A stretch of 64,000 nt of DNA. Origin: Caldilineaceae bacterium. GTDB taxonomy: Bacteria; Chloroflexota; Anaerolineae; Caldilineales; Caldilineaceae. Below, in pieces: positions 22,834-48,755 of this stretch (position 1 is its first letter; each line of letters begins with the position of its first letter). Below the pieces are notes generated by a model. That model worked only from the letters and a program-made list of their open reading frames with translations. It was not told the origin of the DNA and did no database searches. A program made the position numbers and the translations under genes. The stretch spans positions 303,300-367,299 of the forward strand of contig JAPKMW010000001.1 of NCBI GenBank assembly GCA_026645575.1, read 5' to 3'.

Positions 22834-25395
22834 CTACTGAACGTCCACCACGCCAATGGTCAGCGCATCTTTGCTGCCGCGCCACCAAGGGCGATGTGCG
22901 GGGATGAGTGCTTGATCACTGGCACGCAGTACACGTAGCGTGAGGGTGTAGCGACCGGGGGGCGTTGTCGGGGCGAGGGGCAAAGTGCGCCAGTCGCGGA
23001 CGGGGATGAGCGGAGGCCACGCGCCGCTGGGGTAGCCCCAGCCGCCCAGCGCCGTTGTCCATTGGCCAACCACCGCCCCCATTTCATCGGTCAAAGTAAG
23101 TTGCCCAAGATAAGTATCGCGATAACCGCTGGCCTGTGGTCGCCAGACCAGCTCAACGGCAAGGGGGGAACCAGGGGCGGGGCTGGGCGTTGTCAGCCGG
23201 GCGCGCACCAGATCAATGTAATCAAAGCTGGCCGTCACCGCAGGGATGATGGGCGCCTGAGTGGCTGGTACAATGGGCACGGTTCCTAAAGGGAGCGCTT
23301 GCTGTTGCGGCTCTGTGTCAGCCACGGCCACCGGGGTGCCGGTTTGTGCATCATACGCAATCAGCGCCAAGTTGTGCGCACCCGGTGGCGTTGCGACCGG
23401 GATGGGCAAGGCCATGATATAAGCATAATCCGTAGACCACGCCTGTACGGGGATCGTTGGCGTCTCATCAGCCTGTGCCAACGGCTGTCCATCGGCGGTT
23501 GAGAGACGGAGGCTAAAGCTGATAACCGGGGGGAGCGCCGCACGGTTGACCGGCGGTTGCCAGGTTAACTTGATGTAGAGGTATGAGCCGGCAGCAACGG
23601 TCGGCGTGATCAGCGCGGCCTCCTGCAAGCGCAGATCGCCAACAAAGCGATCCTGCTGAAGGGCGAGGGCCGTCCATCTCTGATCCGGCACGGCTTGACC
23701 GCTTTGATAGAGTTGAATACGGAGGTAATCGCGGCCTGGGATCGGCGTTTCGCTCAATAATGTATTATAGGTGTCAAACCAGGTGCGGATTACACCCTGC
23801 GGGTCATTAACGGTGTCATAGAGACGATAGTGCCAGAGCCGTTGGTATTGGCGCGCCAGCGCAAAGAGCGCCAGGTTGGCATCCGCTGCGCGCATGGCAA
23901 AAAAGTCGCTGGTCGGATCGCCCCACCCCAGGCTCGGCGCGCCATCAACGCTTCCTGTGCGCACCACCACCGGGTTGGTCGGGCTGGTTGCCCCTGGCGT
24001 TGCTGGTTGTTGCGCAAAGGTCGGGTAATCGGTCAAGCGGACAAACTGCCCAAGCGGCGGCGGCACGGCGGCATCGACACCGGCCAAGGTGGTCGGCCAG
24101 TAGGTTGTCAATACCGTGTAGACCCATCCGGCATTAACTAGGATGGCATCGCCTGGTCGCCAAGTTTGGGCCAGTTGCGCCACGGCGCTGCGGTGATCGT
24201 CATCTTGTACTGTGGGCGCAAACCAAAAGTTGTACAAGCTCCAGCCATGCACGACCAACAGGGCAATGGTCGCAACCGCGCCAAGCAGCCTTTGCCGCTT
24301 AAAACTAACGAGCAAAGCGGCCGCCAGCAACAGAAGCAGGGGCGACCCATAGGTGAACAGATAGCGCACATGGTAAAGCGGCGTAACCCACAAGGTAATG
24401 ATGACCAGCGCCGCTAGTGGAATGAGGAGATAGCCGGCCAGCACAAAGTAGCCGATGGGCAACCGGCGGCTACTTTTATTCGTGTAGTGAAGGCGAGCGG
24501 TAATCAAAAGCAAGAAGAATAGCGCCAGCCAAAACCAGGCCGTAGGCGCCGGCGCACTCTGCCCGGTCAGCAAAGCGCTGGCGCCACGCGCCAGATCGTC
24601 CAGAAATGCTGCGCCCGTTGTCCACGCAATCCGCCACGGCGGCACCGGCGGGTCGATGGCCTGACGCCAAAAGATTGGTAGCCAGGGCGCCCAGAGCAGC
24701 AAAATGGTAACTTGTGCCATAAGCCAAAGCCGCCACTGCCACCTTGGGCTTTGTCGCCAGGGAGTCAGCCAAAGTAGGAGAGCAATGGCATTCAACGCGA
24801 CCAAGACGAAGAGAAAGTAATACAAGGTATAGAGACCCGCTGCACCGGCAATGGCATAGAGGGCAAGCCAGCCATAGGGGCGTTGATCGCTGCTGCCTGC
24901 TTGCCACCAACGCAACAGCGCCCATAGCCCTAGCAAGCCCAACAGCGCGCCGAGGGTATACATGCGCACTTCCTGGCTATACCAGATCTGATACGGATTG
25001 ATCGCCGCCAGCCACAACCCTGCCAATGCCACGGTCGGCGACGCCAATCGTCGCCCCAATGCAAAGAGCAACGCGACAATCACCACGCCACACCACAAAC
25101 TCGGCCAGGCGTAGAGAAATTCCAAGCCAAAGGCCGGCGTTGGTTGCGTAAACATTTGCCAGAAGTGGAGCAATAAATAGTAGCCGGGGGGGTGAATATC
25201 GCCGGCGGTATGGTGAAGCAAGGCGGGGATGCTCTTCTCTGCCAGCGCCACGCTCACTGTCTCGTCATACCAGAGCGAAGTCGTCCCCAAGCGGTAGAGC
25301 CGCAGGGCAAAACCGACCAGTATACCTAGCAATATGCAAAGCCGCCAACTATTTTTTCGCACACTCTTGGCGCCAATATGAAAATCCCATTCCAC
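22834..25395 (-). CDS. GT-C family membrane glycosyltransferase with large C-terminal beta region
   Basis: The 853-residue protein starts at a GTG (25395) with AAGGAA well placed upstream. Residues ~15-400 are a polytopic PMT_2/ArnT-like GT-C core, including the first-loop catalytic motif LWYDETVSVAL, then HPPGYYLLL and about nine to ten membrane helices. GT-C enzymes move a sugar from a polyprenyl-phosphate carrier to an acceptor on the outer face of the membrane. Residues ~420-853 are soluble and rich in Pro, Thr and beta patterns, with at least two Ig-like segments. The gene faces away from the rest of the cluster, with a palindrome-containing gap at its 5' end. Donor and acceptor are unknown. 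Confidence 0.85.
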   Translation of the reverse strand: MEWDFHIGAKSVRKNSWRLCILLGILVGFALRLYRLGTTSLWYDETVSVALAEKSIPALLHHTAGDIHPPGYYLLLHFWQMFTQPTPAFGLEFLYAWPSLWCGVVIVALLFALGRRLASPTVALAGLWLAAINPYQIWYSQEVRMYTLGALLGLLGLWALLRWWQAGSSDQRPYGWLALYAIAGAAGLYTLYYFLFVLVALNAIALLLWLTPWRQSPRWQWRLWLMAQVTILLLWAPWLPIFWRQAIDPPVPPWRIAWTTGAAFLDDLARGASALLTGQSAPAPTAWFWLALFFLLLITARLHYTNKSSRRLPIGYFVLAGYLLIPLAALVIITLWVTPLYHVRYLFTYGSPLLLLLAAALLVSFKRQRLLGAVATIALLVVHGWSLYNFWFAPTVQDDDHRSAVAQLAQTWRPGDAILVNAGWVYTVLTTYWPTTLAGVDAAVPPPLGQFVRLTDYPTFAQQPATPGATSPTNPVVVRTGSVDGAPSLGWGDPTSDFFAMRAADANLALFALARQYQRLWHYRLYDTVNDPQGVIRTWFDTYNTLLSETPIPGRDYLRIQLYQSGQAVPDQRWTALALQQDRFVGDLRLQEAALITPTVAAGSYLYIKLTWQPPVNRAALPPVISFSLRLSTADGQPLAQADETPTIPVQAWSTDYAYIMALPIPVATPPGAHNLALIAYDAQTGTPVAVADTEPQQQALPLGTVPIVPATQAPIIPAVTASFDYIDLVRARLTTPSPAPGSPLAVELVWRPQASGYRDTYLGQLTLTDEMGAVVGQWTTALGGWGYPSGAWPPLIPVRDWRTLPLAPTTPPGRYTLTLRVLRASDQALIPAHRPWWRGSKDALTIGVVDVQ

Positions 25396-25425
25396 AAGCT
25401 TTTCCTTGCTCTGCAGAGCTTAGGA

Positions 25426-25478
25426 GCGATTAAGAGATTCAATCTCTTAATCGCCCAATCTCTTAATCCCTCAATCCC
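25426..25478. repeat. Perfect palindrome with period-14 flanking repeat
   Basis: GCGATTAAGAGATT (25426-25439) and its exact complement (25441-25454) are separated by one base, followed by two further partial units (CAATCTCTTAATC, CCTCAATCCC). It lies between the divergent GT-C and 3D-domain genes and resembles the elements at 11937 and 53678 in unit sequence (AATCTCT). Confidence 0.85.
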
Positions 25479-25578: not shown

Positions 25579-27105
25579 ATGTCTACAATAGCACTTCGAC
25601 GACGGACAGGACGCACCATCGCCCTGGTGAACCGGCTGCCGGCGCTGATGGCCACTGCCTCCGGCAGCGTGGTTATCCTGGTCTTGCTATGGGGGCTTTG
25701 GTCGCTCACCAGTATAACGGTGCATGTCATGGTGGATGGCGTACCGGAAACGATCAAGACCCATCGCCGCACGGTTGGTGATCTGCTGCTCGACTTGGGG
25801 ATGACCATCCATGTTAATGATCGCGTGACGCCGACCGTCGCCGCGCAGTTGCACCAAGGCATGACAATTTCAATCCAACGGGCGCGCCGTGTACAGATTT
25901 GGGCCGATGGTCGACAGTGGGAGACGGCGAGTTGGGGTCAAACTGCTTATGCCATTTTGGCGGAAGCGGGGGTGACGCTCGATCACGATGACCAGGTGCA
26001 GATTGCCGACCGGCGCCTGCACGTCGATGCGCCGTTGCCGCCGGTCACGCCAACCCAATTGCCGCAAACCTATAGCCGTGGCTATGCGTGGGATAACTGG
26101 CGATACGAGCCACTTCAGTTGCGTTTGCAGCGCTCTATGCCTGTGACCGTAAGGGATGGCGGCTTACCTTTTACGATTCGGACAACGGCGCAGACGGTCG
26201 GCGAAGCATTGCGCCAAGCGGAAATTACCATCTATCTGGGCGACTTGGTGCAGCCGGGGTTAGGTACGCTGGTGTCCCCAGGGTTGCGTGTGCAGATTCA
26301 GCGGAGCAAACCGATTTCGTTGCGGGTCGATGAGCGCATCTTGAAAACGCGATCACGTGCGCAAACGGTGGGGGATGCGTTGGTCGAGGTTGGCGTTGGC
26401 ATCTCCGGCTTGGATCGGGTGGAGCCGGCGCTGGATACGCCGCTAAAAGCTGATTTAGCCATTGCCATTACCCGCATTCATGAGACGATTGAGGTGAAGG
26501 AGAAAATTGCCCCCTTTGAGACGGTCTTCCAGCCTGATCCCAATTTGCCGATTGACACACAACAACAGACCACCCCCGGCGCCGAAGGCATTACTCGTGA
26601 ACGCTATCGCGTGCGCTATGAGAATGGGCAAGAGGTCGCGCGTACGCTGGAGGATACCTGGGTGGCGCAGGAACCGGCCCAACGCATCATTGCCTTTGGT
26701 CAGTTGATCCAGCCGCAGACCATCACCACGCCCGAAGGAGAGCAGATCACCTATTGGCGCAAAGTTCGCATGTTAGCCTCTAGCTATAGCGCCGGTACAG
26801 CCGGCGTTTCACCCGACAAGGCCTGGTATGGTCGCACCTACACGGGCGACCCAATGCGCAAAGGGGTGGTGGCGGTCGATCCCAAAATTATCCCGTTACG
26901 TTCCCGTGTTTTTGTCCCCGGCTATGGTTACGGTGACGCGCTGGATATCGGCACAGCGATTCGCTCACGGCGCATTGACCTAGGCTATGACAATGATAAC
27001 TTACAGCTATGGAACCGCTGGGTGGATGTCTACCTGCTCTGGCCGCCACCCCCTGCTCATCAAATCACCTGGGTCATCCCCAACTATCCGCGTGCGCCGA
27101 ATTAG
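25579..27105 (+). CDS. Membrane-anchored YabE-like protein with DUF348 repeats, G5 and 3D domains
   Basis: The 508-residue protein has one N-terminal membrane anchor (about residues 32-50, GSVVILVLLWGLWSL). Three or four ubiquitin-like DUF348 repeats follow (recognisable by VMVDGVPETIKTHRRTVGDLL, QTAYAILAEAGV, QTVGEALRQAEI and QTVGDALVEVGV). A G5-type segment lies at ~300-380 and a C-terminal 3D domain at ~400-500. The 3D domain keeps its three Asp in AVDPKIIPL, DALDIGTAI and RIDLGYD, expected to form the active site of a lytic transglycosylase-type peptidoglycan enzyme. The order resembles resuscitation-promoting or YabE/YocH-like cell-wall proteins. It probably acts on the wall outside the membrane. 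The mRNA looks leaderless. Confidence 0.88.
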   Translation: MSTIALRRRTGRTIALVNRLPALMATASGSVVILVLLWGLWSLTSITVHVMVDGVPETIKTHRRTVGDLLLDLGMTIHVNDRVTPTVAAQLHQGMTISIQRARRVQIWADGRQWETASWGQTAYAILAEAGVTLDHDDQVQIADRRLHVDAPLPPVTPTQLPQTYSRGYAWDNWRYEPLQLRLQRSMPVTVRDGGLPFTIRTTAQTVGEALRQAEITIYLGDLVQPGLGTLVSPGLRVQIQRSKPISLRVDERILKTRSRAQTVGDALVEVGVGISGLDRVEPALDTPLKADLAIAITRIHETIEVKEKIAPFETVFQPDPNLPIDTQQQTTPGAEGITRERYRVRYENGQEVARTLEDTWVAQEPAQRIIAFGQLIQPQTITTPEGEQITYWRKVRMLASSYSAGTAGVSPDKAWYGRTYTGDPMRKGVVAVDPKIIPLRSRVFVPGYGYGDALDIGTAIRSRRIDLGYDNDNLQLWNRWVDVYLLWPPPPAHQITWVIPNYPRAPN

Positions 27106-27582: not shown

Positions 27583-30500
27583 ATGCCCCAAATACAACAA
27601 ACCAATACAACGCCCACAAATTCAATCAAGCGTGTACACGTTGGCTTATTGCTGCTCATCATTCTGGCCGGTTTTACGTTGCGTGTCTGGGGGATCAACT
27701 TTGACCAAGGGCTGGGCAGCCATCCCGACGAACGGAGTACATCCTGTTTCTATGCGGCTGTGTTGCGCCTGCCCACCAGTTGGGACGAATTCTGGGATCC
27801 GCAGCGCAGCCCGTTGAACCCGCTTTGGGATCTCAATGCCCAGCGCGCGCGCAGCTTTACCTATGGTCATTTCCCCTTGTACTTGGGTACGGCTATGGGC
27901 GAGTTGATGCACATGGCTGCGCCGTTGGCGGAGCGCTTGGGGGCTTCGGAAGCCACCGTCGCGCTAATGGCGCGCGCCGATGGCGCTTGTGACGCTATTG
28001 CGGTGGCTGGGCGGCTGCTCATGGCCTTACTGGATACGCTCACCATTTTCTTCCTCTTTTTATTAGGGCGGCGGATCTTTGGTCCAGGCGCCGGGTTGTT
28101 GACTGCTGCATTCTATGCCTTTACGGCCCAAGCGATCCAGTTAAGCCACTTCTTTGCCATGGATCCAGCCAGCACTACCTTTACGGTCCTGGCCGTGTTG
28201 GGCGCCGTGATGATGGTGCAGGAACGCTCCTGGCGCGCCGTCGTCCTCAGCGGCATTGCCGCCGGACTGGCGATTTCCTCGAAATTTAGCGCCCTGCCGA
28301 TTTTGGGCGTGCCGATTGTGGCAGCCATTCTGATGCTTTGGCAGGAGCAGACCGCCAGCCGGCTCGCCGGGCGAGTGGCGGATGCCCGACTACAATTGCG
28401 GGCGCTGCTTGCCATTCCGCTGATGCTCGTGTTGGCGGTGGTCGCTTTTGCTGTGACCAGCCCCTACGCCATTCTCGACTGGGAGAGCTTTATCCGCGCC
28501 ACGTTGGTCGAACAGGGACGGATGGTGCGCGGCATTGCTGATATGCCCTTTACCCGCCAATATCGCAATACAACGCCTTATCTCTATTTCTTGCAACAGC
28601 AACTGGCCTGGGGTTTGTGGTGGCCGCTGGGGGCGGTGGCGGCGCTGGGCGCCCTCCATGCGCTAATGATCTTACTCTACGCCATCGGCCTGTTGCTCTA
28701 CAATCGCCTTGTTGAAGTAGGCCAACGCGCCGGTCGCCTGCTGACCGATAGCCAGGTCGCCTATGTCGTGGTCTGGAGTTGGATCATCCCCTATTTTGGC
28801 CTCACGGGCGCCTTTCTTGCCAAATTTAACCGCTATATGAGTCCCTTGCTGCCCTTTGTGCTGCTCTTCGCCGCCGGGTTGATCTGGCAATTGTGGTGGG
28901 CATGGAAGCAAGGACAGGGCGACAGGCGACAGGAGACAGGTGACAACGAGATCGGCGCGGTACGCACTTCGGGGATGCGACGTTTTGGCGCTTTTGTCTC
29001 TTCGTCGTTGGCAGTACTTTTGACGCTAGTCGGCATTGGCGGTGGGCTGTTCTGGTCGCTGGCCTATGTCAACGGCGTCTATAACCACGAGCATACGTGG
29101 ATTACGGCCAGCCGCTGGATCTATCAGAATGTGCCGAGCGGATCGATCATTCTTTGGGAACAGTGGGATGATGCCTTGCCCAAGACGGTGCCGGGGGAAC
29201 CGGGGATGGACATGGGCAGCACGGGACTGCGCAACATCGACTGGGGGCCTTATGAAGAGGATACCGCTGAGAAGTATGAAATCATGAAGGCCAAGCTGCG
29301 CGAGGCGGATTATGTGGTCTATTCCTCCAAACGCATCTATGATAGCGTCGATGAACTGCCCGAACGCTACCCCATGACCAATCGCTATTACCAGGCGATG
29401 TGGAGCGGAGAACTGGGTTTTGAGCTGGTGCAGGAAACCACCTCGCCGCCACGTCTCTTTGGCTTTGTCTTTGACGATCGCCACGCTGACGAAAGCTGGA
29501 GTCTCTACGACCATGCCCAGGTCTCGATCTTTAAAAAAGTGCGCGATCTCAGTGACGCCGAATATGATGCCATCTTTGCCGGCACCTGGGAAGGCGCCAT
29601 TCCCTGGTATGTGGGCGAGGGGTCGCCCTTAAGCCCGTTTCTTAACGCCATTGGCTTGGGTGGTACACAGGAGAGTGAAAGCCGTGGCTTGATCAACCGC
29701 ATTATCGCCATGGTTTCGGAAAATTATAGCGCCCCTCAGCAACCGCCGCTGGAAGAGCGCAAGTCGCTTATGGTCGAGCCGCCGCTGGAACAGTTGCCGG
29801 TGGTTGACAATTACCGCTGGAATGAGGTCGCTAGCGAGAATACCTGGCTAGGGGTGATCTGGTGGTGGCTGGTGGTGGCTTTGCTGGGCTGGGTGGCATG
29901 GCCCTTTGCCTTCTGGCTCTTTCGCCCCCTGCGTGATCGCGGCTATTTCCTGAGTCGCGCCTTGGGGTGGCTGCTGGCGGCCTGGCTCTTGTGGATCTTA
30001 GCTAGCTTCCAATTGGCGATGAACTCAGTCGTCAATGCCTGGCTGGCCGTGGCAGTGCTGGCTGTTTTGGGGGTGGCTGCGGCGTTGGCCCAAGCTCGCA
30101 CCTTGCTTCCCTTTCTGCGTGAACGCTGGCCTTTGTTGCTCTTTGGCGAGCTGCTCTTTGCCGCGGCCTTTCTCTTTTTTGTCCGCCTCCGCATGGGCAA
30201 TCCTGACATTTGGCAGCCCTGGTTTGGCGGCGAGAAGTTTATGGAATTCGCCTTTCTTAACGGCATCCTGCGCAGCCCCTACTTCCCGCCGGTGAACCCC
30301 CACTTTGCCGGCGGCTATATCAACTATTACTACTTTGGCATCTATCTGGTGGCCTATCTGATCAAGCTTACCGGCATCTACGCCGAAGTTGCCTTCAACC
30401 TGGCGATCCCGACGCTCTTTGCCCTTACAGTCAGCAATGCCTTTGCCGTCGCCTATTCGGCGGTACGGGTTGTGCTACCCTCGCCTACCTTCCCCCGAAA

Positions 30501-32721
30501 GGGGAGGAATGCTGGTCGCGCTGAGGGCCATCTGGCGGCGGAGAAGGCTGCTGATGGCGATGGTCGCTCCCTTCCTGTTGCGGAGATCTGGGGTGGGACG
30601 CCGTTACCCGCTGCCCAAGAAATCACCGACAAAGAGATCATTGCAACACCCGTGGTCGCCGCAGAAGCAATGTCCGGAGGACAAGACGAGCCATCGACCA
30701 TCAAACCGCATGCACTCCAACCCGTGATGGAACAAGCCAATACCCCTACGCCATCAGCCACTGACGACGTGGATGCCCACAACACGCAACACGAATCATG
30801 TACCACGAATCACGAATCACAAATCACAAATCACGCACCTCATTGGCGCTACGGCCTCTTCGCCGCGCTCCTCGGCCCGCTCTTTGTGGCAATTTTGAGC
30901 AACCTGGAGGGCTTTGCCCAGGTGGTGCGCAACCTAGCGCGCCTGAGTACCAGTTCTTTTCAAAGTAATCATAGTGTGGTGCAGGCGCTGGTTCATGCCG
31001 GCAGCGGCTTGCAACAGGTGTGGGAAACCGGTCAACCTCTGCCGCCCTATGACTTCTGGGGGCCAAGCCGCGTCATTCCGGCCACCATCAACGAATTTCC
31101 CTACTGGAGCTTTCTCTTTGCCGATCTGCACCCCCATCTCATCGGCATTCCCTTTAGCGTCTTCTTCCTCTCGCTGGTCTTAACGCTCTTCTTCGATTTG
31201 GCGAGCGGACCGGAAGTGGGGCGCCGTTTGACTTGGCAGCGGGCGACGGGCTTGCTTTTTCTCTTTGCCCTGTCGTTGGGAACGCTGGCGAGCGTCAATC
31301 TTTGGGAATTGCCCACCTTCCTGGGCTTAGGGGTCCTGGCGCTGGTTGTCGCCCAATACCGGGGGCGGGGGCGGATCAACTGGCCTGTCACCCTTGTGCT
31401 GTCCGCGGTCTATCTGGCCGGCGCCTATCTGCTCTACTGGCCCTTCTTTGCCAATTATGTCAATGTCGGCGCCAGCGGGGTAGGGTTGGTGAAAGAGGGG
31501 GATGACACCGGGTTGTGGCTGTTGATCTGGGGCTTCTTTGGCTTGATCCTGCTCAGTTGGCTCCTCTATACGGCAACCCGTGGCGGAGAGAGCAGCGGCA
31601 GCGGCAGCGAACGTTGGCTGGCGGGAAACTTCCGCTATCTGGATCGTCTACCGCGCTATCTCCACCTACACCGCCTTTGTGTAAGTCAACCAACGCTAGG
31701 CTATCTCGTCACCCTGGCCCTTGTGCCGTTGACGGTGGTTGCAGCGGTTGGCGCCTTTTTGCTTGACCGGACGGTGTTGGCGCTCTGCTTAGCGCCGCTG
31801 GGGTTATGGTGGTTGTTGCTTTGGCGGCGCAGTCGCCAGGCCGATGCTGGTAGCGTGTTAGTGGTGATTCTCGCCATTACTGGGCTGGCGCTTCTGGCCG
31901 GGACCCAAGTTGTCTATCTGAAAGACTTTTTAGCCGGCGGCGATCACTACCGGATGAACACCCTCTTCAAGTTTTTCAATCAAGTCTGGGTGTTATGGGG
32001 CATTGCCGCTGCCATTGCGCTGCCCCGCTTCTGGCATGGCTATATTCTCCAGCAGAATTGGCGTCAACTCCCGTTGCGCACGGCTTGGGGTGTCGTCTTT
32101 ACCTTGCTCTTTGCCGCTGGCTTTTCCTATCTGGTCTGGGGGACGCCGGTGCGGTTGGATCAGCGCTTCCCCGGCTGGCGCCCGCCGATTGGCACGCTCA
32201 ACGGGCTGGACTTTATGCGCGAAGGGGTCTTCTACTGGCCTGACCAGAACAACCCAATTGAAATGCGTCATGATTGGGCCGCCATTCAGTGGATTCTTGC
32301 CAATGTACGCGGCAATGCCATTGTCATGGAAAGTTCGGAAGTGAGCTACTATCGCGAAGCCGGCTCCCGTATTGCCAGCATGACTGGTCTTAGCGGTATT
32401 CGCGGTTTCCACGAAGGCGAACAGCGATATGGGGATGAGGTGGGGCTGCGAGACATGCTCCATCGCGAATTCTGGTCAACGATGGATCTGGTGCGCACCC
32501 AGCAGTTGCTCCAGGAATTGAACGTTGATCTGGTTTACGTTGGCCCACTGGAACACTATTTACACCCAGATGGGGTGCAGAAACTAGCCGTCATGGCGGC
32601 TAACGGTCAACTGACTGCCATCTACACTGATGAGCTTTCCGTGATCTATGCCGTGCCGGGCCGTTTGGCGCAGACGCAGCAGGGTTTTTATGCACCCCTG
32701 GGGCAGACAGCGATGCGATAA
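27583..32721 (+). CDS. Giant membrane protein: GT-C glycosyltransferase fused to a YYY (DUF2298) domain
   Basis: The 1712-residue protein has two halves. Residues ~15-500 form a GT-C/PMT-type polytopic core whose first outer loop carries GSHPDERSTS, the expected Asp-Glu catalytic pair. Residues ~500-750 are largely soluble. Residues ~760-1712 are a DUF2298 (Chlor_Arch_YYY) unit with YYYFG (about 915), LHPHLIGIP (about 1182), HYRMNTLFKFFNQ (about 1456) and VYVGPLE near the end. The same landmarks are found in the next two genes. The fusion implies that YYY proteins act in the same step as GT-C enzymes on the outer membrane face. Odd points: an in-frame period-7 repeat at 28913-28950 (GACAGG units), and an insert at residues ~964-1084 that looks like translated intergenic repeat DNA. 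The start ATG lacks a ribosome binding site. Confidence 0.85.
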   Translation: MPQIQQTNTTPTNSIKRVHVGLLLLIILAGFTLRVWGINFDQGLGSHPDERSTSCFYAAVLRLPTSWDEFWDPQRSPLNPLWDLNAQRARSFTYGHFPLYLGTAMGELMHMAAPLAERLGASEATVALMARADGACDAIAVAGRLLMALLDTLTIFFLFLLGRRIFGPGAGLLTAAFYAFTAQAIQLSHFFAMDPASTTFTVLAVLGAVMMVQERSWRAVVLSGIAAGLAISSKFSALPILGVPIVAAILMLWQEQTASRLAGRVADARLQLRALLAIPLMLVLAVVAFAVTSPYAILDWESFIRATLVEQGRMVRGIADMPFTRQYRNTTPYLYFLQQQLAWGLWWPLGAVAALGALHALMILLYAIGLLLYNRLVEVGQRAGRLLTDSQVAYVVVWSWIIPYFGLTGAFLAKFNRYMSPLLPFVLLFAAGLIWQLWWAWKQGQGDRRQETGDNEIGAVRTSGMRRFGAFVSSSLAVLLTLVGIGGGLFWSLAYVNGVYNHEHTWITASRWIYQNVPSGSIILWEQWDDALPKTVPGEPGMDMGSTGLRNIDWGPYEEDTAEKYEIMKAKLREADYVVYSSKRIYDSVDELPERYPMTNRYYQAMWSGELGFELVQETTSPPRLFGFVFDDRHADESWSLYDHAQVSIFKKVRDLSDAEYDAIFAGTWEGAIPWYVGEGSPLSPFLNAIGLGGTQESESRGLINRIIAMVSENYSAPQQPPLEERKSLMVEPPLEQLPVVDNYRWNEVASENTWLGVIWWWLVVALLGWVAWPFAFWLFRPLRDRGYFLSRALGWLLAAWLLWILASFQLAMNSVVNAWLAVAVLAVLGVAAALAQARTLLPFLRERWPLLLFGELLFAAAFLFFVRLRMGNPDIWQPWFGGEKFMEFAFLNGILRSPYFPPVNPHFAGGYINYYYFGIYLVAYLIKLTGIYAEVAFNLAIPTLFALTVSNAFAVAYSAVRVVLPSPTFPRKGRNAGRAEGHLAAEKAADGDGRSLPVAEIWGGTPLPAAQEITDKEIIATPVVAAEAMSGGQDEPSTIKPHALQPVMEQANTPTPSATDDVDAHNTQHESCTTNHESQITNHAPHWRYGLFAALLGPLFVAILSNLEGFAQVVRNLARLSTSSFQSNHSVVQALVHAGSGLQQVWETGQPLPPYDFWGPSRVIPATINEFPYWSFLFADLHPHLIGIPFSVFFLSLVLTLFFDLASGPEVGRRLTWQRATGLLFLFALSLGTLASVNLWELPTFLGLGVLALVVAQYRGRGRINWPVTLVLSAVYLAGAYLLYWPFFANYVNVGASGVGLVKEGDDTGLWLLIWGFFGLILLSWLLYTATRGGESSGSGSERWLAGNFRYLDRLPRYLHLHRLCVSQPTLGYLVTLALVPLTVVAAVGAFLLDRTVLALCLAPLGLWWLLLWRRSRQADAGSVLVVILAITGLALLAGTQVVYLKDFLAGGDHYRMNTLFKFFNQVWVLWGIAAAIALPRFWHGYILQQNWRQLPLRTAWGVVFTLLFAAGFSYLVWGTPVRLDQRFPGWRPPIGTLNGLDFMREGVFYWPDQNNPIEMRHDWAAIQWILANVRGNAIVMESSEVSYYREAGSRIASMTGLSGIRGFHEGEQRYGDEVGLRDMLHREFWSTMDLVRTQQLLQELNVDLVYVGPLEHYLHPDGVQKLAVMAANGQLTAIYTDELSVIYAVPGRLAQTQQGFYAPLGQTAMR
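28913..28950. repeat. In-frame heptamer repeat (GACAGGN) inside the GT-C/YYY gene
   Basis: About five seven-base units (GACAGGG, CGACAGG, CGACAGG, AGACAGG, TGACAAC) encode a polar linker (KQGQGDRRQETGDNE) just after a membrane helix. Period 7 is not a multiple of three, so unit gain or loss would shift the frame unless three units change together. Confidence 0.8.
30475..30838. repeat. Repeat-derived insert inside the GT-C/YYY gene
   Basis: This ~120-codon stretch interrupts the YYY domain between two membrane segments. It opens with a hairpin (CCTTCCCCC / GGGGAGG) and ends with seven-base units of the CACGAAT/CACAAAT type, translated as alternating NHESQIT-like residues. Neither neighbouring YYY paralogue has this segment. 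It looks like intergenic repeat DNA that became coding. Confidence 0.7.
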
Positions 32722-40124: not shown

Positions 40125-40162
40125 AACAATTATTAATTGAAAATTGAGAATTAATAATTGTT
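40125..40162. repeat. AT-rich palindrome, second copy
   Basis: AACAATTATTAATT (40125-40138) and its exact complement (40149-40162) flank a ten-base loop. Size, arm length and loop match the palindrome at 20636-20673, with compensating base changes in both arms. Confidence 0.8.
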
Positions 40163-40199
40163 GTTTGTTAATGGGAAGTGGAGATCTGGGAACTGGTCT

Positions 40200-43100
40200 A
40201 TGAGTACAAAAGAATTGACACGGGAGGGCATGGCGTCGCCAACAGGGGCGTCAACGGTGGCGACGCCAGTACTTGAGGCAAAGAATGGTCAGGCGCCAAA
40301 GCCTACGCTGCTGGATCGCCCTTTGGCTGCGCTGATGGCTTTCAATTGGGAGACGACCGCCTGGATTCTGTTGTTGATCGTGGCGTCCGCCCTCCGTTTT
40401 TACAACGTGGGCGAACGCGCCATGAGCCACGACGAGAGTCTGCATACGCTCTACTCCTATTATCTCTATGATACGGGCAAGTATGAACACAATCCGATGA
40501 TGCATGGGCCGATTCTCTTCCATGCCAATGCCTTTGCCTACTTCCTCTTTGGCGACAGTGACGCTTCGGCGCGCTTCTTCCCGGTGCTGGCCGGCATTGG
40601 CATTGTGGCCATGGCCTGGCGTTTCCGGCGTTATCTTGGCCGGGTTGGCGCATTGGTGACGGGCGTGTTGGTGACGGTCAGTCCGAGCTTGCTCTTCCAC
40701 AGCCGCTATATCCGCGATGACATTTACATTGCCTTCTTCCTCATGGTCTGGATCTACGGCATCTTCCGCTACATGGATACACGGGAACGCAAGTGGCTGG
40801 CCTGGATTATGGTGGGCATGTCGCTCGGCATTCTGGCCATGGAAGCGCACTTTATCAGTGGCGCCATCCTGGGCGCTTTCTTTGTGGGGCTGGCGCTCTG
40901 GCAGGTGGTGGGCCATCGGCTCTGGTTGGCCGTGGCGCCGGTCTTTGCCGCCGGCGGCTTCTGGTATGTCTTGCATGTCCAGGCGCGTGAATTGAGTAAA
41001 CAGGCTGAAACTGCAGCCGAGGGGGCCGCCGACTTGATCAGCCGCAGCAATCGGCTGGAATTTACCGGCTTGGGCGCCATTGCCATTGCCGTCATCATCG
41101 GTTTTGTGCTGATCTACATGGTCATGAATCGCGAAAAGTGGCAACAGTTGCGCCGCAGTGTCCACCTGGACCTGGCAGTCTTCATGTTAACCCTAGTGCT
41201 ACCCTTCACCGGCGCCTTCTTCCTGCCCTTGCTGGGCTGGACTTTGAAGAATAAATTTGACGCTGTGGGCGCCTGGACAACTTTCGAAATAGCAACGGCA
41301 GCATCTATTGTCATCCTGCTCACTGTGTTGGCGGTTGGTATTGCCTATTTCTGGTATGACATGCGTGGGCGCGCCGCACGTCCGGCTGATAGTGAAGCCA
41401 ATGGCGCGCATGGCAGTAATGGTGATGGCGCGGTTGACCCTGCCGCCGAACCGTCCAATCTGGGCCTTAACTTTGTGGTCTGGGCGCAGTTGATGGGGGT
41501 CTTCTGGCTGATCAACATCCTCTTCTATACCACCTTCCTGACCAATCTGCGCAATGGTCTCGCCACCGGTATTGTCGGCTCGCTGGGTTACTGGCTGGCG
41601 CAACAGGAAGTGGCGCGTGGCGGGCAACCAACCTATTACTATCTGCTCATTGCCAGCGTTTATGAATTTCTACCCTGGTTGCTGAGCATTGCCGGCGCCG
41701 GCGCCATTGTCTACTGGCTCTTGAAAAACCGCGATTGGGACCCCGTGCCAGCGACCGATCTGCCGGCGGAACTGTCGGCAACAGCGCAGACTGGCCGTGG
41801 ACCCCGACACGATGACGCCGAATTATTGCGCCATAATCGCGTCTACTTTGTTGTCTTCTGTATCTGGTGGGTGATCGGTTCTTGGCTGGCCTATTCCGTG
41901 GCCGGCGAAAAGATGCCCTGGCTCATCACCCACATGGCCTTGCCCATGTGTGTCCTGGGCGGCTGGTACTTTGGCCGTCTGCTAAACCGCATCGACTGGG
42001 GCGCCGTGCGCGAGCAAAAGGCGTTCTGGCTGATCGGGGTGGCGCCGGGGTTGATTTTTGCTCTGCTGACCCTGGTGGGCGTGACGCGTTCCGCCGATCG
42101 TTCGGTGAGCGCGACCGCCGGCTCCATGCAACGGGTGTTGGCGCTACTCATTACGGTCGGTCTGCTCTACGCCATCTGGTATTGGGCCGCGCGCTTGACC
42201 TGGCGGACGGCAGCGCGTCTGCTGACCATTGGGCTGACAACCTTGCTCTTCCTGTTGACGGTGCGCGTCTCCTTTATGCTCACCTACATCAACTTCGACA
42301 TGGCGACCGAGTATATGGTCTATGCCCATGCCTCGCCCGACATTAAGCGGGCGCTACGAGAAATTGACTCGATCAGTGAGCGCACCGTCGGGGGCCGTAA
42401 CATTGTGGTCGCCTATGACGACGAAAGTTCATGGCCGCTCAGTTGGTACATGCGTCTTTACCCCAACCATAAATTCTATGGCGCCGCACCCAACAGTGAC
42501 TCCATGTCGGCGCCAATCATCATCGTTGGTGATGGCAACTATGACAAAGTCCACCCTTATGTCGAGCGCGATTATGTTAAACGCACCTACCGTCTGGTCT
42601 GGTGGCCGGACATGGATTACTTTAACATGACCTGGGGGCGCCTCTGGAATGCCGTAGTCGATCCCCAACAGCGGGAGCGCATCTTCCAGATCTTCTTCTT
42701 CCGGCGCTACCGTGATACCAATGATTACAGCAAGTTCCGTGATCTCTCTGTGTGGCCCCATCGCAAGGAGTTTGAGATGTGGGTAAAGCGCGATCTGGCA
42801 ACCCAAATCTGGGATCTGGGCGTGGCGCCGGTGGTGAGCGCCGGCAATGATATGGCATCACAAGCGCTGGCAAAAGAGATCGATCTCTCGGCGCTGGCGA
42901 TCTACAACGGCGTCTACGGCGACAAAGCGCTGCTGACCCCGCGCACGTTGGCGATTGCGCCGGATGGCGCCCGTGTGATTGCTGACACCGGCAGTAACCG
43001 TATTGTCGTGCTGGATCGCGACGGCAACTTCCTCCGTACCTTTGGCTCCACTTGTCGTCTGGGTGAAGGGGCTGCCGGTGGTTGTCTCGACCCTGATGGC

Positions 43101-43817
43101 GCCGGCCCGTTAGCGCTGGGCGATGGACAATTCTATGAGCCGTGGGGCGTGGCCGTTGGCGCCGACGGCAAGATCTTTGTTGCGGACACCTGGAATGGTC
43201 GCATTCAGGTCTTTGATAACGAAGGGCGCTTTATCACTAAATGGGGCGCCTTTAGCAGCACCGGCGGCGAGTTGACCGATGCCTTCGCCCTCTTTGGCCC
43301 GCGCGGTCTGGCGATTGCCAACGACGGCAATCTGCTGGTGGCTGACACGGGTAACAAGCGCATTATCAAGTTCACGCCCGATGGCCAGTTGGTGCAACAG
43401 ATCGGCGGCGGCGGTGTGGTCGGTGGTCGCTTTGAGGAGCCGGTTGGGCTGGCCGTCTCGCCCCTTGACGGCAGCGTCTTTGTGGCGGACACCTGGAACC
43501 ATCGGATTCAAAAGCTGACCCCCGCGCTGGAATTTACCGCCGAGTGGCCGGTGCCGGGCTGGGAGTCACAAGATATTGTCGCCAAGCCCTATATTGCCGT
43601 GACCGGCACTGGCGATGTTTACATCACTGACCCTGCGCTCTACCAGGTGCTGGTCTACAACCAAAACGGTGAGATCAAAGCTTCCTTTGGCAAGTTTGGC
43701 ACAGACTCCAACCGCTTTGATCTGCCGACCGGCATTGCCTTTGACCCAGCCACCAATACGGTTGTGGTCAGCGATGCCAACAACAACCGGATTCTCACCT
43801 TCCAACCGGTGCCGTAA
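40200..43817 (+). CDS. Agl23-like GT-C membrane protein with C-terminal NHL repeats
   Basis: I chose the ATG at 40200 (MSTKELTREG). The 1205-residue protein begins with a GT-C-type core (residues ~45-720) with the outer-loop motif ERAMSHDESLHT and KYEHNPMMHGP, RYIRDDIYIAF and EAHFISGA. These resemble the flippase-activity-associated Agl23 family that Chloroflexota share with methanogenic archaea. After a soluble segment comes a set of about five NHL-type repeats (residues ~900-1205), seen in EPWGVAVGADGKIFVADTWN, LAIANDGNLLVADTGNKRI and GLAVSPLDGSVFVADTWNH, which should fold as an outer beta-propeller. The propeller may bind glycans or protein acceptors. The next gene starts with no gap after this stop codon. 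Confidence 0.85.
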   Translation: MSTKELTREGMASPTGASTVATPVLEAKNGQAPKPTLLDRPLAALMAFNWETTAWILLLIVASALRFYNVGERAMSHDESLHTLYSYYLYDTGKYEHNPMMHGPILFHANAFAYFLFGDSDASARFFPVLAGIGIVAMAWRFRRYLGRVGALVTGVLVTVSPSLLFHSRYIRDDIYIAFFLMVWIYGIFRYMDTRERKWLAWIMVGMSLGILAMEAHFISGAILGAFFVGLALWQVVGHRLWLAVAPVFAAGGFWYVLHVQARELSKQAETAAEGAADLISRSNRLEFTGLGAIAIAVIIGFVLIYMVMNREKWQQLRRSVHLDLAVFMLTLVLPFTGAFFLPLLGWTLKNKFDAVGAWTTFEIATAASIVILLTVLAVGIAYFWYDMRGRAARPADSEANGAHGSNGDGAVDPAAEPSNLGLNFVVWAQLMGVFWLINILFYTTFLTNLRNGLATGIVGSLGYWLAQQEVARGGQPTYYYLLIASVYEFLPWLLSIAGAGAIVYWLLKNRDWDPVPATDLPAELSATAQTGRGPRHDDAELLRHNRVYFVVFCIWWVIGSWLAYSVAGEKMPWLITHMALPMCVLGGWYFGRLLNRIDWGAVREQKAFWLIGVAPGLIFALLTLVGVTRSADRSVSATAGSMQRVLALLITVGLLYAIWYWAARLTWRTAARLLTIGLTTLLFLLTVRVSFMLTYINFDMATEYMVYAHASPDIKRALREIDSISERTVGGRNIVVAYDDESSWPLSWYMRLYPNHKFYGAAPNSDSMSAPIIIVGDGNYDKVHPYVERDYVKRTYRLVWWPDMDYFNMTWGRLWNAVVDPQQRERIFQIFFFRRYRDTNDYSKFRDLSVWPHRKEFEMWVKRDLATQIWDLGVAPVVSAGNDMASQALAKEIDLSALAIYNGVYGDKALLTPRTLAIAPDGARVIADTGSNRIVVLDRDGNFLRTFGSTCRLGEGAAGGCLDPDGAGPLALGDGQFYEPWGVAVGADGKIFVADTWNGRIQVFDNEGRFITKWGAFSSTGGELTDAFALFGPRGLAIANDGNLLVADTGNKRIIKFTPDGQLVQQIGGGGVVGGRFEEPVGLAVSPLDGSVFVADTWNHRIQKLTPALEFTAEWPVPGWESQDIVAKPYIAVTGTGDVYITDPALYQVLVYNQNGEIKASFGKFGTDSNRFDLPTGIAFDPATNTVVVSDANNNRILTFQPVP

Positions 43818-44915
43818 ATGAAAGCGCCGGTAGCCCCAGTGCCTGATCGTAGGGGCAAGATAATTCTTGCCCCTACGATCAGGCACTGGGGGCTGTTGCT
43901 CTTTGTCATTGTGTCTTTGTGCTTTGCCGTAGGCTCAGTAAGGGCAATGCCGTTAACCCAAGCGCCGATTGTTTCACCATCCGCGATCAGTACACCGACG
44001 CCCGTTGCCAATGGCAATCATAACGAAAGGGCGCCGGAACAGTATGTGGTGAAAGCCGGCGATACGCTCTGGCAGGTGGCGTTGGAGATGGGGATCGATG
44101 TGGCGCTGATGCCCTGTGCGGTGGCGCCGACGTTTCGCCCGGAACAGCCGTTGGTGATTGGCAATGCGCTCGAACGGTTGCCGCCGGAACAGTGGTGTCA
44201 TGCCGTGCAGCCGGGGGAGACGCTGGCAACCATTGCCGCCACTTATGGTGTATCGGTAAAGCAAATTTATCAGATCGCTTGGAATGGCTTAACGAATACG
44301 CCAGTAGAGGCTGTACAGTTGACGCCAGGCGATTACTTGCGCATCCCCTTGCCGCCGGCGCCAACCGACACAACCGGCTCGCCTTCGTTTCTGAACTGGA
44401 TGCTAAACCAGCCGGTCAACACGTCGCCCTTTACCGTGCTGGCGGTAGGTGGCCCCTTTGCTGAAGAGAAGCAACTGTTACAGCGTCTGGGCGAACGGGC
44501 TTTACAGCCGATGAACCAACCAGGCGCCGTGCCGGCCAACTGGCCCTATGGCAGCGGCGTCTTTCACTGGCCGCTGGCCGGCTGGTTGACACAGGGCTAT
44601 CGCTATGATCATCGGGCGATTGATATTGCTGCGCCGACCGGCACCCCCATCCTGGCGGCTGATCGGGGGGTGGTGGTGCGAGCCGGGTGGAATCAACAGG
44701 GCTATGGTCTCTTTGTCATTATCGACCACAACATTGATTATGTCACGCTCTATGCGCACCTGAGTGAAGTACTGGTAGAGGAGGGGCAGGTGGTGGCGCA
44801 AGGTGATTTGATCGGCAAGGTCGGTTCGACCGGCAACAGCACCGGCCCCCATCTCCATTTTGAAATTCGCGACTTTGGTCGCTTAACCAATCCACTGGAA
44901 TTATTGACGCGGTAA
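43818..44915 (+). CDS. Secreted LysM and M23 (lysostaphin-type) peptidase
   Basis: The 365-residue protein begins with a basic stretch and a signal peptide (HWGLLLFVIVSLCFAVGSVRA). LysM-type segments at about 75-175 follow (QYVVKAGDTLWQVALEMGI, HAVQPGETLATIAATYGV) and bind peptidoglycan. The C-terminal M23 domain shows Zn-ligand motifs in YDHRAIDIAAPTG, LYAHLS and GPHLHFEI, so it should cut peptide bonds in the cell wall. The ATG at 43818 directly follows the upstream stop codon and has no ribosome binding site. The first ~28 codons are formed by a palindromic repeat (43832-43894), so the true start may instead be a TTG near 43895 with GGGGG before it. Confidence 0.87.
   Translation: MKAPVAPVPDRRGKIILAPTIRHWGLLLFVIVSLCFAVGSVRAMPLTQAPIVSPSAISTPTPVANGNHNERAPEQYVVKAGDTLWQVALEMGIDVALMPCAVAPTFRPEQPLVIGNALERLPPEQWCHAVQPGETLATIAATYGVSVKQIYQIAWNGLTNTPVEAVQLTPGDYLRIPLPPAPTDTTGSPSFLNWMLNQPVNTSPFTVLAVGGPFAEEKQLLQRLGERALQPMNQPGAVPANWPYGSGVFHWPLAGWLTQGYRYDHRAIDIAAPTGTPILAADRGVVVRAGWNQQGYGLFVIIDHNIDYVTLYAHLSEVLVEEGQVVAQGDLIGKVGSTGNSTGPHLHFEIRDFGRLTNPLELLTR
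43832..43894. repeat. Near-perfect palindrome encoding the N terminus of the LysM-M23 protein
   Basis: The left arm (43832-43860) and right arm (43865-43894) pair over ~28 bases around the loop TAAT, with one extra G on the right. The arms contain TCGTAGGGGCAAGA, sharing TCGTAGGGGCA with the palindrome at 1778. In frame the element encodes the residues just before the signal-peptide hydrophobic core. Confidence 0.9.
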
Positions 44916-44976: not shown

Positions 44977-45002
44977 ACGCGTGTTTTTAGGTGCAATCAT
45001 CT

Positions 45003-48000
45003 ATGGTTAGAAAATTTGCGCAACCCCATCGCAGCCCGCGCTTCCACAGCTTTTTGTGGGGGGCAGGTGCACTTCTGTTAGCGATCCTTGCCCAACGTCA
45101 ACTATATGATAAGCAGATCGAGACGGCAAGCGTTCTTTTTGCTGTGGCTGCTTTGCTCTTTGTCTGGCCTTTCCGTGCGCAACTATGGTCGGCGATCCCG
45201 GTGGCTTCACAGTTGCACATTGGTGGCGGCGGTTTACTAAATTTGCTCTGGCGTTTGCTGCCGGGGGCGCTGGCGCTGGCCGCGGCCTACTGGTCGCTAC
45301 GCCTCTTCCAGGTCAATGTGCAAGAACCGAGCGTGCGTGCCTGGTGGTTGCACATTGCCAGTCTCCTGCTTATCTTGCTCTTTGCCTTTCTGCTGGACTG
45401 GGGCGCGCCACGCGAACCGGCGGCGCTGACCATTGCCGAAGAGGAGGAAAGTGGCGCCGCGGGGCGCTGGCATTGGTGGTCGATTGGTAGCTTGCTTGTC
45501 ATCACACTGCTGGCGATCTTTATGCGCCTCTGGCAATTTGCTGAAATTCCTTTTGGCACCTGGTATGATGAGGCCGAAGCGGGCTTACTGGCGTTGCGCA
45601 TCTTGGAAAACGAAAATTACCGGCCGATCTTTGAAGGGTCGATCAACATGCCGGCCCACTACCTCTATCTCATCACCTTTTTCTTTCACTATGTTGAGAT
45701 TTCCACCCAATCTATTCGCTTGGTGAGTGTGGTGATGGGGGTGGCGATGGTGGGGGCTGCTTACTTGGTTGGGCGTGAACTTTTGGGTGGACGGCTGTGG
45801 GGGCTGGCGTTGGCCTTTCTTGTGGCGGTGTCGCGCTGGGCCGTCAATTTTAGCCGCATTGGTATGTACAACATTAGCACCCCCCTTTTTGAACTACTGA
45901 CCATCGGGTTGCTCTTGCGCGCTTTTCGCCGGGGGCGCTATCTCGATTATGCGTTGGCTGGATTGTCACTGGGGTTGGGTCTCTGTTTTTATGTGGCGTT
46001 TCAACTCTTTGTCGGCGTGATTCTGCTCTTTTATCTCTTTACTAGTTTGGTGCAACGGGGCTTTTTGCGGCGAACCTGGTCAGGCTTGCTGCTGGTGCTG
46101 GTGACGGCAGCGTTGGTGGTGATGCCCATCGTTGTCTTTGCCAACCTCAAATCCGATATCTATTTTGCCCGCACTAACCGCACCTCGATCTTTGCCGAAA
46201 AGACGCCACAGGCAGAATTGCCGCCGCTCTTGCAACAAACTTGTCCCCAACTGCCGGGCGAGTGGGCAAACCGCTGCGAACGGCTCCCAATGGTATTGGA
46301 AAATGCCCGCAAACATCTCTTGATGTACAACTATCGCGGCGACCCGAATGGCCGTCACAACCTGCCGGGCGAGCCGATGCTCGATAATATCATGGCAGCG
46401 CTGCTGGTGGTCGGGGTGGGCCTCTGTCTTATCCGTTTCTGGCGACCGCGTACGATGCTGCTTTTGCTGTGGCTGGGGGTGATGCTCCTTGGCGGGATTC
46501 TTTCGCTTGGCTTTGAAGCGCCCCAATCGCTGCGGTCGATTGGCACCTTGCCGGCGGTCTACTTACTGGCGCTGGCGCCACTCTATGCCCTGCAACGCGC
46601 CTGGATCAAGAGCGGCGGTCAAGCAAACTCGCCCTTCTTTGTCCTGCCGCTCTGTGGCCTGCTGCTTTGGAGTGGGTACAGTAACTTCTACACCTATTTC
46701 TACCGCCAGGCGACCGATTTTGCCAGTTGGAATGCCTTTTCCACCCCGGAGTCGATTACGGCCAAGCTGTTGACCAACCTGGATGATCAGACCGAAGCCT
46801 ACGTGATCGCCTATTTCCACGGTCACCCGGCGATTAACTTTCTGGCGCGCGGGACGCGCTCCTATCAACGGCTAGAGACCACTGATCACCTACCGTTGGC
46901 CTGGCCGAATGATAAGAATGTTGCGCTCATCATGAATGCCGACAGCCGTTCGCTCTTTGAAGAGGCCAAGCATTACTACCCGACCGCTCATTTTGAGGAA
47001 ATCGGTTCGGCGAGCGGTGGCCCGCCGGTGGTCTACTATGCCTATCTAACCCGCGATGATCTGCTGAATGCCCAGGGCTTGCAGGCGCGCTATTACGGCA
47101 ATGAAAGCTGGGCGGACGCTCCCATTTTGGAACGCAAAGAATTGATGATCACTGCCGATTGGTCAAGTCAACCGCCGGTGCCGCGCCCCTTCTCGGTTGA
47201 ATGGGACGGCGTGTTGAATGTCACCGATTATGGCCCGCACCAATTTTTTATCCAGGCGCCGGCCTATGCCGAACTGTACATCGGCGAACAGCAGGTGTTG
47301 ACTGGCACCGGCGAGTTGAGTGGCGCTCTGCTCCTGGCCGAAGGGAAACATACCATGCGCCTACGCGCCGTGGGCGGCGCCGGCCCCCTCAGCTTTTCCT
47401 GGCGCCCGCCCGATCGCGGGCCGGAACTGATTCCCTCATCGGCCTTGTATGTGCCGCCTGTCACCAGCAACGGTCTACTAGGTAAATTCTATGCTAATGG
47501 CAACTGGGAAGGCGATCCGGTGCTGGAACGGATTACGCCCTCCCTCAATCTCTATTTCCATATTCCCACCCTGCCCCGCCCCTACACCGTTGAGTGGAGT
47601 GGCAAAATTGCCATTCCCCAGAGTGGCAGCTATCGCTTCGGGTTGGAATCCATTGACGAGTCGTCATTGGAAATCAACGGGCAGCCGGTTGTTAGCACCC
47701 AAGTGCCGAATGAGTACCGTGAAGGGGCTATTGAGCTGACGAGTGGTTTGCATGATGTGCGCCTTCGCTATGCCGACCGCACCGATCATACCCATATCAA
47801 TTTCTACTGGGTGCCCCCCTTTGCCGGTCAGCAACCGGTGCCTTCAGAAGTACTCTTCCCCCCCCAAGCGAACTATGAGCGGGTAGCCTTGCCCAATGTC
47901 ACCCAACTGGTCTTCAACCCCAACGCACCGGCGCCGCCCACGGTCAGTAGCGCGCCTTTGAGCGGGATTGCACGTGCGGTCGCGGTTGGGCTGAATCAAC

Positions 48001-48755
48001 CCAAAGGCATTGCTGTCGGTCCCGATAATCGCCTCTATGTGGCTGACACGGGTAACAAGCGCGTCATCATCTTGCAGCCGGATGGCACGATCATTGGCGA
48101 ACTGCAAGGGACAGCGCCCTTTGCCGAACCGTTCGACCTTGCCGTCGGGCCGGATGGCAAGGTTTATGTCCTGGATCCAGCGCTGGAGCGCATTAGTATC
48201 TTTGACCGGGATGACACCTACCTGGGTGACTTGCCGGCTGATCCGGCTATGGTAGGCCGTTCGCGTGGGATTCATGTGGATCGTGATGGGCGCATTTGGG
48301 TTGCCAACACTGCCGGCGGGCGCGTGGTCGCCTTGGATGGCAATGGGAACCTGCTGTTGGGCATTCCGGTCTGGCCGGGCAATGACAGTCAGCCGGTCGA
48401 TGTGGCGGTGGGGGTGGATGGGTCGATCTTTGTCACCGATGCCGGCTTGAACAAGCTGGTGCAATTTGATCCCGGCGGCCGCCGCCTGTTGGCTTGGGAT
48501 ATTCCGGTCGCCAACACGATTGATGCCAGCCATCTGGCCGTCGATGGCGCCGGCTATCTCTACCTGAGCAAGCCGGAACCCTTCCTGGTGAGCCAATTAT
48601 TACCCAGCGGCGAACTGGTGGGTGACTGGTCGGCTATACCGCCGGGAGGTGGGCCAGCGAAGCCAATCGGCATTGCCGTCGATAGCAGCGGGCGGGTCTG
48701 GTATGTCGATACGATTGGCGGGATGGTCTATGTGATCGAGCCGGATGTGGGGTGA
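45003..48755 (+). CDS. GT-C membrane glycosyltransferase with two PA14 domains and NHL repeats
   Basis: I prefer the ATG at 45003 (MVRKFAQPH), with AGGTG upstream; a GTG at 44991 is also in frame. The 1250-residue protein has a GT-C core (residues ~10-640) with catalytic-loop motif GTWYDEAEAGLLAL and NMPAHYLYLI. Two PA14-like domains follow, at about 680-810 (LQARYYGNESWADAP) and 820-950 (LLGKFYANGNWEGDP). NHL repeats fill ~980-1250 (GIAVGPDNRLYVADTGNKRV, DLAVGPDGKVYVLDPALERI). PA14 domains commonly bind carbohydrates, so the enzyme appears to carry its own glycan-recognition modules outside the membrane. It ends one base before the convergent pyrK-like gene. Confidence 0.87.
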   Translation: MVRKFAQPHRSPRFHSFLWGAGALLLAILAQRQLYDKQIETASVLFAVAALLFVWPFRAQLWSAIPVASQLHIGGGGLLNLLWRLLPGALALAAAYWSLRLFQVNVQEPSVRAWWLHIASLLLILLFAFLLDWGAPREPAALTIAEEEESGAAGRWHWWSIGSLLVITLLAIFMRLWQFAEIPFGTWYDEAEAGLLALRILENENYRPIFEGSINMPAHYLYLITFFFHYVEISTQSIRLVSVVMGVAMVGAAYLVGRELLGGRLWGLALAFLVAVSRWAVNFSRIGMYNISTPLFELLTIGLLLRAFRRGRYLDYALAGLSLGLGLCFYVAFQLFVGVILLFYLFTSLVQRGFLRRTWSGLLLVLVTAALVVMPIVVFANLKSDIYFARTNRTSIFAEKTPQAELPPLLQQTCPQLPGEWANRCERLPMVLENARKHLLMYNYRGDPNGRHNLPGEPMLDNIMAALLVVGVGLCLIRFWRPRTMLLLLWLGVMLLGGILSLGFEAPQSLRSIGTLPAVYLLALAPLYALQRAWIKSGGQANSPFFVLPLCGLLLWSGYSNFYTYFYRQATDFASWNAFSTPESITAKLLTNLDDQTEAYVIAYFHGHPAINFLARGTRSYQRLETTDHLPLAWPNDKNVALIMNADSRSLFEEAKHYYPTAHFEEIGSASGGPPVVYYAYLTRDDLLNAQGLQARYYGNESWADAPILERKELMITADWSSQPPVPRPFSVEWDGVLNVTDYGPHQFFIQAPAYAELYIGEQQVLTGTGELSGALLLAEGKHTMRLRAVGGAGPLSFSWRPPDRGPELIPSSALYVPPVTSNGLLGKFYANGNWEGDPVLERITPSLNLYFHIPTLPRPYTVEWSGKIAIPQSGSYRFGLESIDESSLEINGQPVVSTQVPNEYREGAIELTSGLHDVRLRYADRTDHTHINFYWVPPFAGQQPVPSEVLFPPQANYERVALPNVTQLVFNPNAPAPPTVSSAPLSGIARAVAVGLNQPKGIAVGPDNRLYVADTGNKRVIILQPDGTIIGELQGTAPFAEPFDLAVGPDGKVYVLDPALERISIFDRDDTYLGDLPADPAMVGRSRGIHVDRDGRIWVANTAGGRVVALDGNGNLLLGIPVWPGNDSQPVDVAVGVDGSIFVTDAGLNKLVQFDPGGRRLLAWDIPVANTIDASHLAVDGAGYLYLSKPEPFLVSQLLPSGELVGDWSAIPPGGGPAKPIGIAVDSSGRVWYVDTIGGMVYVIEPDVG

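Follow-up and report, generated by a model that had tools for sequence, protein, structure and literature searches.

A Caldilineaceae gene cluster of large YYY- and Agl23-family membrane proteins with predicted GT-C folds and a proposed role in surface-glycan assembly

Polyprenyl-phosphate compounds serve as donors for GT-C enzymes, whose site of action is the outer side of the membrane, and some of these enzymes, including mycobacterial arabinosyltransferases and yeast Pmt enzymes, work as paralogue pairs. Two families are the subject of this analysis, YYY (TIGR03662; DUF2298, Pfam accession PF10060) and Agl23 (TIGR03663), the second of which presumably takes its name from Haloarcula hispanica Agl23. 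Our literature search returned no match for TIGR03662 or TIGR03663, matches to 'YYY domain' looked unrelated by title, and a search on GT-C enzymes returned nothing on the YYY family as judged by titles and the beginnings of abstracts. DUF2298 is rarely named in the literature searched and is termed uncharacterized in one paper that does name it. Here we describe a locus that encodes members of both families in a 64,000-nucleotide stretch of DNA (the window; contig JAPKMW010000001.1, positions 303,300 to 367,299) from a Caldilineaceae bacterium, whose closest named relatives in a homologue comparison are likewise Caldilineaceae.

The locus spans window positions 22834–48755 and contains nine genes, g1–g9 (Table 1). 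An earlier note, made from the sequence alone, had listed seven polytopic proteins of 639–1712 residues among their products, and all seven are present at those lengths. Genes g3–g9 lie on one strand, separated by 109, 122, 24, 53, 0, and 75 bp, and are thus operon-like. We favor, with moderate confidence, the interpretation that g3–g9 encode an outward-facing set of GT-C glycosyltransferases that would take polyprenyl-phosphate, polyprenyl-phosphate-sugar, or polyprenyl-phosphate-oligosaccharide compounds as donors and assemble or transfer a glycan at the cell surface. The core of this set would be two paralogue pairs, one formed by a GT-C+YYY fusion and a stand-alone YYY protein and the other by an Agl23 protein (here degenerate) and an Agl23-NHL fusion. 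As heteromers, the two pairs may extend or transfer a lipid-linked glycan, while the NHL and PA14 modules could hold the acceptor, the glycan, or partner proteins outside the membrane. The presence of the 3D and M23 proteins fits a glycan that is deposited within the wall or on its surface, and these proteins might make openings in the wall at that site. This interpretation draws on gene order among close relatives, phylum-wide co-occurrence, predicted folds, and conserved acidic residues.

Family membership is clear for most of the core proteins. At NCBIfam cut-offs of 300.25 bits for TIGR03662 and 126.25 bits for TIGR03663, g3, g4, and g5 score 459.1, 453.5, and 444.3 bits against the YYY model, far above its cut-off. 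According to the TIGRFAM note, YYY proteins reportedly consist of either a single YYY domain or an N-terminal region followed by two YYY domains and TPR. Both architectures were seen in our data; g3 differs in combining a single YYY with a GT-C domain and in lacking TPR. Among ten proteins scanned, only g7 (235.9 bits) exceeds the TIGR03663 cut-off; it resembles the family in score and in its invariant HGP motif and Asp, and differs by its C-terminal NHL propeller. Both g6 (82.9 bits) and g9 (47.6 bits) fall below this cut-off. Despite its score, g6 is a full-length homologue of g7, since hhalign of the two families gives an E-value of 4.7e-39 over 583 columns and aligns 'PLTPLEA' of g6 with 'AMSHDES' of g7. 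PMT-type Pfam matches exceed their cut-offs in g7, g9, and the N-terminal part of g3.

Structure prediction places the YYY family among GT-C proteins. The predicted structure of g4 (predicted local distance difference test score 86.9, predicted template modeling score 0.92) and that of g7 match the GT-C fold, clear of unrelated folds, in a VIA-align comparison in which entries missing from the program's list do not exclude other folds. The fold check that the earlier note had proposed thus came out positive, with YYY and GT-C proteins sharing a predicted GT-C fold. Based on these two structures, the PMT-type matches, and the profile tie between g6 and g7, all seven polytopic proteins belong, to the extent tested, to a single fold type, with g1 a weak case. 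YYY and Agl23 agree in fold only, their profile comparison being not significant, and a sequence search against solved structures with YYY, g6, and the N-terminal part of g3 found no meaningful match. AftA/Emb and yeast Pmt1-Pmt2 likewise have the GT-C fold in common with YYY, whereas a profile search of PDB sequences, made with YYY only, found no sequence kinship to them, and pairing of the window proteins would be read from gene order only.

The top-ranked fold for g4 is STT3/AglB, and its C-terminal globular domain is of the AglB type by structural match. For YYY proteins, the GT-C fold and AglB-like C-terminal domain are predictions of this analysis. They also invite the alternative that YYY proteins act like oligosaccharyltransferases, passing an entire lipid-linked glycan to an acceptor that is a protein or part of the wall, with Agl23 and the other GT-C proteins extending that glycan. 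We regard this as unlikely: AftA, ALG12, ArnT, and Pmt nearly equal STT3/AglB in structural score, YYY proteins lack WWDYG in the C-terminal domain (their consensus there is GWDGHESQWRG), and they have no STT3 (Pfam accession PF02516) match at an E-value of 0.01. Sequence-profile kinship between YYY and STT3 was tried and rejected, hhalign giving a non-significant probability of 1.7; the comparison of Agl23 with STT3 gives a probability of 47 over 133 columns. WWDYG occurs in four (L093, L095, L097, and L099) of seven Chloroflexota STT3 stretches examined. A clear STT3, defined by our own line of more than 60 bits, is encoded in 7 of 301 Chloroflexota genomes, one of which also has YYY; at the Pfam cut-off the count is 36 of 301, mostly weak matches in other GT-C proteins.

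Conserved residues point in the same direction as the folds. An acidic residue in the first loop, which we infer to face outward, is kept in YYY (E129, 87/87), Agl23 (D92, 37/37), and the fusion proteins (D49, in all 39 ungapped rows). The motifs named in the earlier note were all found: WYDE in g1 and g9, HPDE in g3, HDE in g7 (residues 91–93), and a Glu without a preceding Asp in g6 (E59). WYDE of g1 is kept in 5/5 aligned relatives, DE of g9 in 12/12 PA14-bearing relatives, and HPDE in 39 of 44 GT-C+YYY fusions, the remaining five being gapped there. In the YYYxG motif, Y160 and Y161 are present in 87/87 sequences and Y162 in 83/87. Relatives of g6 retain E59 (60/62), R105 (61/62), W519 (62/62), and R522 (62/62), and have Asp at position 58 in only 4/62. 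The simplest reading of this pattern is that g6 is a conserved, probably inactive partner, though a Glu-based activity is possible. Placement among GT-C proteins and the candidate catalytic residues make YYY function directly testable. At residue 905 of g3 (window 30295–30297) there is an Asn where 43/44 fusions of other loci and, in a motif alignment, 87/87 YYY-only open reading frames (ORFs) have Asp.

Gene order around YYY was examined by scanning genome contigs with a YYY alignment and taking the best 80 of 540 confirmed loci, a set that leans toward the window's own kin; loci were annotated on stop-to-stop ORFs with models built from the window genes. A TIGR03663-like gene directly follows YYY in 61/68 loci with at least 1.8 kb downstream, and a full Agl23 lies within 8 kb in 36 of the 51 with at least 5.3 kb downstream, NHL-fused in 35 of these 36. 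An Agl6-type (g6-type) gene is followed by full Agl23 in 37/48 cases. Upstream, a GT-C+YYY fusion directly precedes YYY in 36/47 loci with at least 5 kb available (29/47 by a stricter rule). Among the 11 loci lacking an adjacent fusion, four have one farther up, one has a YYY ORF without a recognized GT-C part, and six have none. This conserved order excludes chance grouping. A YYY tree with 82 rows (window, 15 homologues, and first 40 loci) separates fused from stand-alone proteins as two clades with support of 100 each. Both g4 and g5 fall in a group of 12 rows in this tree (support 99), and each has close relatives of its own there; they are duplicates that arose inside a single subclade. 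YYY sequences from L019, L020, L021, L022, and L026, short contigs of metagenome-assembled genomes labeled Deltaproteobacteria or Acidobacteria, stand next to those of Caldilineaceae in the tree, a placement that reflects either gene transfer or binning error.

Across the phylum, TIGR03662 matches 212 of the 301 genomes (193, about two thirds, over cut-off) and TIGR03663 matches 248 (191 over cut-off). When weak matches are dropped by best E-value (14 YYY at 3.5e-7 or weaker and 56 TIGR03663 at 5.6e-17 or weaker), 190 genomes have both families, 8 only YYY, 2 only Agl23, and 101 neither. Co-occurrence is tight, though kinship among the genomes inflates its p-value. The link is probably not new, because the TIGRFAM notes reportedly already state that the two families co-occur, often near each other. 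Proximity is looser. Among the matches listed, 81 genomes place both families, which are within 20 kb of each other on a single contig in 41, share a contig at a distance of 0.3–1.65 Mb in 5 (G126, G142, G158, G174, and G246), and are on different contigs only in 35, some perhaps through assembly breaks. The neighborhood comparison suggested in the earlier note therefore holds among close relatives and in only half of the placed genomes across the phylum, and the YYY and Agl23 pairs are two modules rather than one locus. In G126, a stand-alone YYY and a 2498-residue protein (GT-C with HPDE, two YYY, and TPR) are encoded near 1.85 Mb. Two Agl23 proteins are encoded in tandem near 3.40 Mb; both retain HDE and HGP, and the second carries NHL. 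Of 14 control genomes, both models match the archaea Haloferax volcanii and Methanosarcina acetivorans, and TIGR03663 alone also matches Bacillus subtilis and Corynebacterium glutamicum; two of its four matches exceed the cut-off. Kinship with archaeal-type Agl loci, as the earlier note put it, is thus seen at the level of families only.

Several observations weigh against a single outward-facing glycosyltransferase set. The separation of YYY and Agl23 pairs in about half of the placed genomes (40/81) lowers our confidence in it. The PMT_2 match of g1 is weak (22.8 bits, below the cut-off of 26.1). Relatives of g1 lie beside the cluster in 7/80 loci, of g2 before the fusion gene in 13/80, and of g8 in 5/80, which makes these genes peripheral. 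TIGR03663 carries the NCBIfam title 'flippase activity-associated protein Agl23', and the H. hispanica protein, once purified, carried a lipid-linked oligosaccharide through liposome membranes and also rescued an rft1 mutant of yeast (PMC11182771).

The separated pairs and sparse g1, g2, and g8 relatives would suit a loose gathering of GT-C genes from unrelated pathways. Order conservation and co-occurrence already disfavor this, the latter persisting even where the pairs lie apart, and we consider such a gathering very improbable. The flippase data would suit another reading, in which Agl23, and possibly YYY, would flip or scramble lipid-linked sugars, leaving only g1, the N-terminal part of g3, and g9 as glycosyltransferases. 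This too seems doubtful, since the predicted g7 structure is an ArnT-like GT-C fold and the HGP motif and catalytic-position Asp are invariant in 37/37 sequences, features that a pure flippase would not need and that argue for an enzymatic family. Identity of g7 to ArnT, the lipid A aminoarabinose transferase, is 14%, and Chloroflexota are not expected to have lipid A. Enzyme and flippase activities could also coexist in Agl23. The fold predicted for g7 is that of a glycosyltransferase, whereas the published role of the H. hispanica protein, a possible orthologue of g7, is that of a flippase. The Agl23 result thus calls the flippase name in the literature into question and can be put to a simple test with mutants.

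For the favored glycosyltransferase set, independent support for a surface-glycan role comes from Pseudobutyrivibrio plasmid pNP95, on which a surface-polysaccharide cluster holds a YYY gene (TIGR03662, 432.3 bits) together with genes for a sugar epimerase, a GT2 protein, an O-antigen ligase, and an aminotransferase. With this cluster as evidence, surface-glycan assembly, the role suggested in the earlier note, is the best-supported one. In plasmid searches, Agl23 had no match, whereas YYY matched the Firmicutes plasmid just named and, over part of its length, one haloarchaeal sequence without annotation. A Pfam scan of 34 window ORFs found no family of sugar-nucleotide enzymes or cytoplasmic glycosyltransferases, in agreement with the absence reported before; the window has 57 ORFs of at least 150 residues, most of the others overlap those scanned, and shorter ones lay outside the scan. 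Five relatives (G001–G004 and G006) each carry 15–47 GT2, one GtrA-like, and 2–8 initiating-transferase matches elsewhere in the genome. Near the loci, a GT4-cluster gene occurs in 8/80, a methyltransferase-cluster gene in 6/80, and an LPG-synthase-type membrane protein in 3/80, one example of each being Pfam-checked. The steps that make the donors are most likely encoded in other parts of the window's genome too, and the idea of a complete pathway acting wholly on the outer face is not supported.

YYY is a family of unknown function present in about two thirds of the Chloroflexota genomes sampled. If the favored interpretation is right, it outlines how most Chloroflexota build surface glycans. 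A bolder and quite tentative proposal is that YYY proteins, working as fused and stand-alone pairs, constitute a third type of membrane enzyme that transfers oligosaccharyl groups or glycans, beside the STT3/AglB/PglB and O-antigen-ligase types. Agl23 proteins would then be glycosyltransferases, not primarily flippases, also paired and with one member lacking the catalytic Asp in some lineages, and in most Chloroflexota and some archaea the two families would jointly carry out glycosylation of the cell surface.

Table 1. Genes of the locus, with window coordinates and assigned features.
Gene	Window positions	Strand	Length (aa)	Features
g1	22834..25395	-	853	GT-C protein, WYDE at 42-45, large C-terminal part; divergent from operon
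g2	25579..27105	+		Wall-active type protein; DUF348 x3, G5, and 3D (Pfam)
g3	27583..32721	+	1712	GT-C domain (HPDE at 47-50) fused to C-terminal YYY (DUF2298) domain (Pfam/NCBIfam)
g4	32831..35440	+	869	Stand-alone YYY; predicted GT-C fold, AglB-like C-terminal domain at 731-869
g5	35563..38160	+	865	Second stand-alone YYY; lineage-specific duplicate of g4
g6	38185..40104	+	639	Agl23 paralogue; catalytic-position Asp lost, Glu59 kept
g7	40158..43817	+	1219	Agl23 (TIGR03663) GT-C protein fused to NHL beta-propeller
g8	43818..44915	+		LysM x2 and M23 peptidase (Pfam)
g9	44991..48755	+	1254	GT-C (WYDE), two PA14 stretches, NHL/Vgb-like propeller (Pfam)

Among the modules expected outside the membrane, Pfam recovers NHL in g7 and g9 and PA14 in g9, while the putative Ig-like part of g1 has no Pfam match. 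The PA14 part of g9 is weakly like the RsgI3 PA14 region (E-value 1e-4), and its propeller is like NHL propellers. The LysM-M23 peptidase and G5/3D wall protein claimed before are both borne out by Pfam matches. Rfam and tRNA scans of the window gave no match.

Directly downstream, a minus-strand gene (window 48757–49611) whose small product has an iron-sulfur binding tail of the DHODB type ends 1 bp from g9. Further along, at 49716–53629, are genes for a DUF58 protein and then a transglutaminase that weakly matches TgpA-N; these two are likely to be a membrane pair as well. At the left end of the window, a CHAT-domain protein is encoded at 3604–4713, with one TPR and one Uma2 protein encoded close by. 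Among the related loci, a histidine kinase-like ORF cluster occurs in 12/80, nearest the Agl6-type gene in nine, with the Pfam scan covering L070 (16887–20198) alone.

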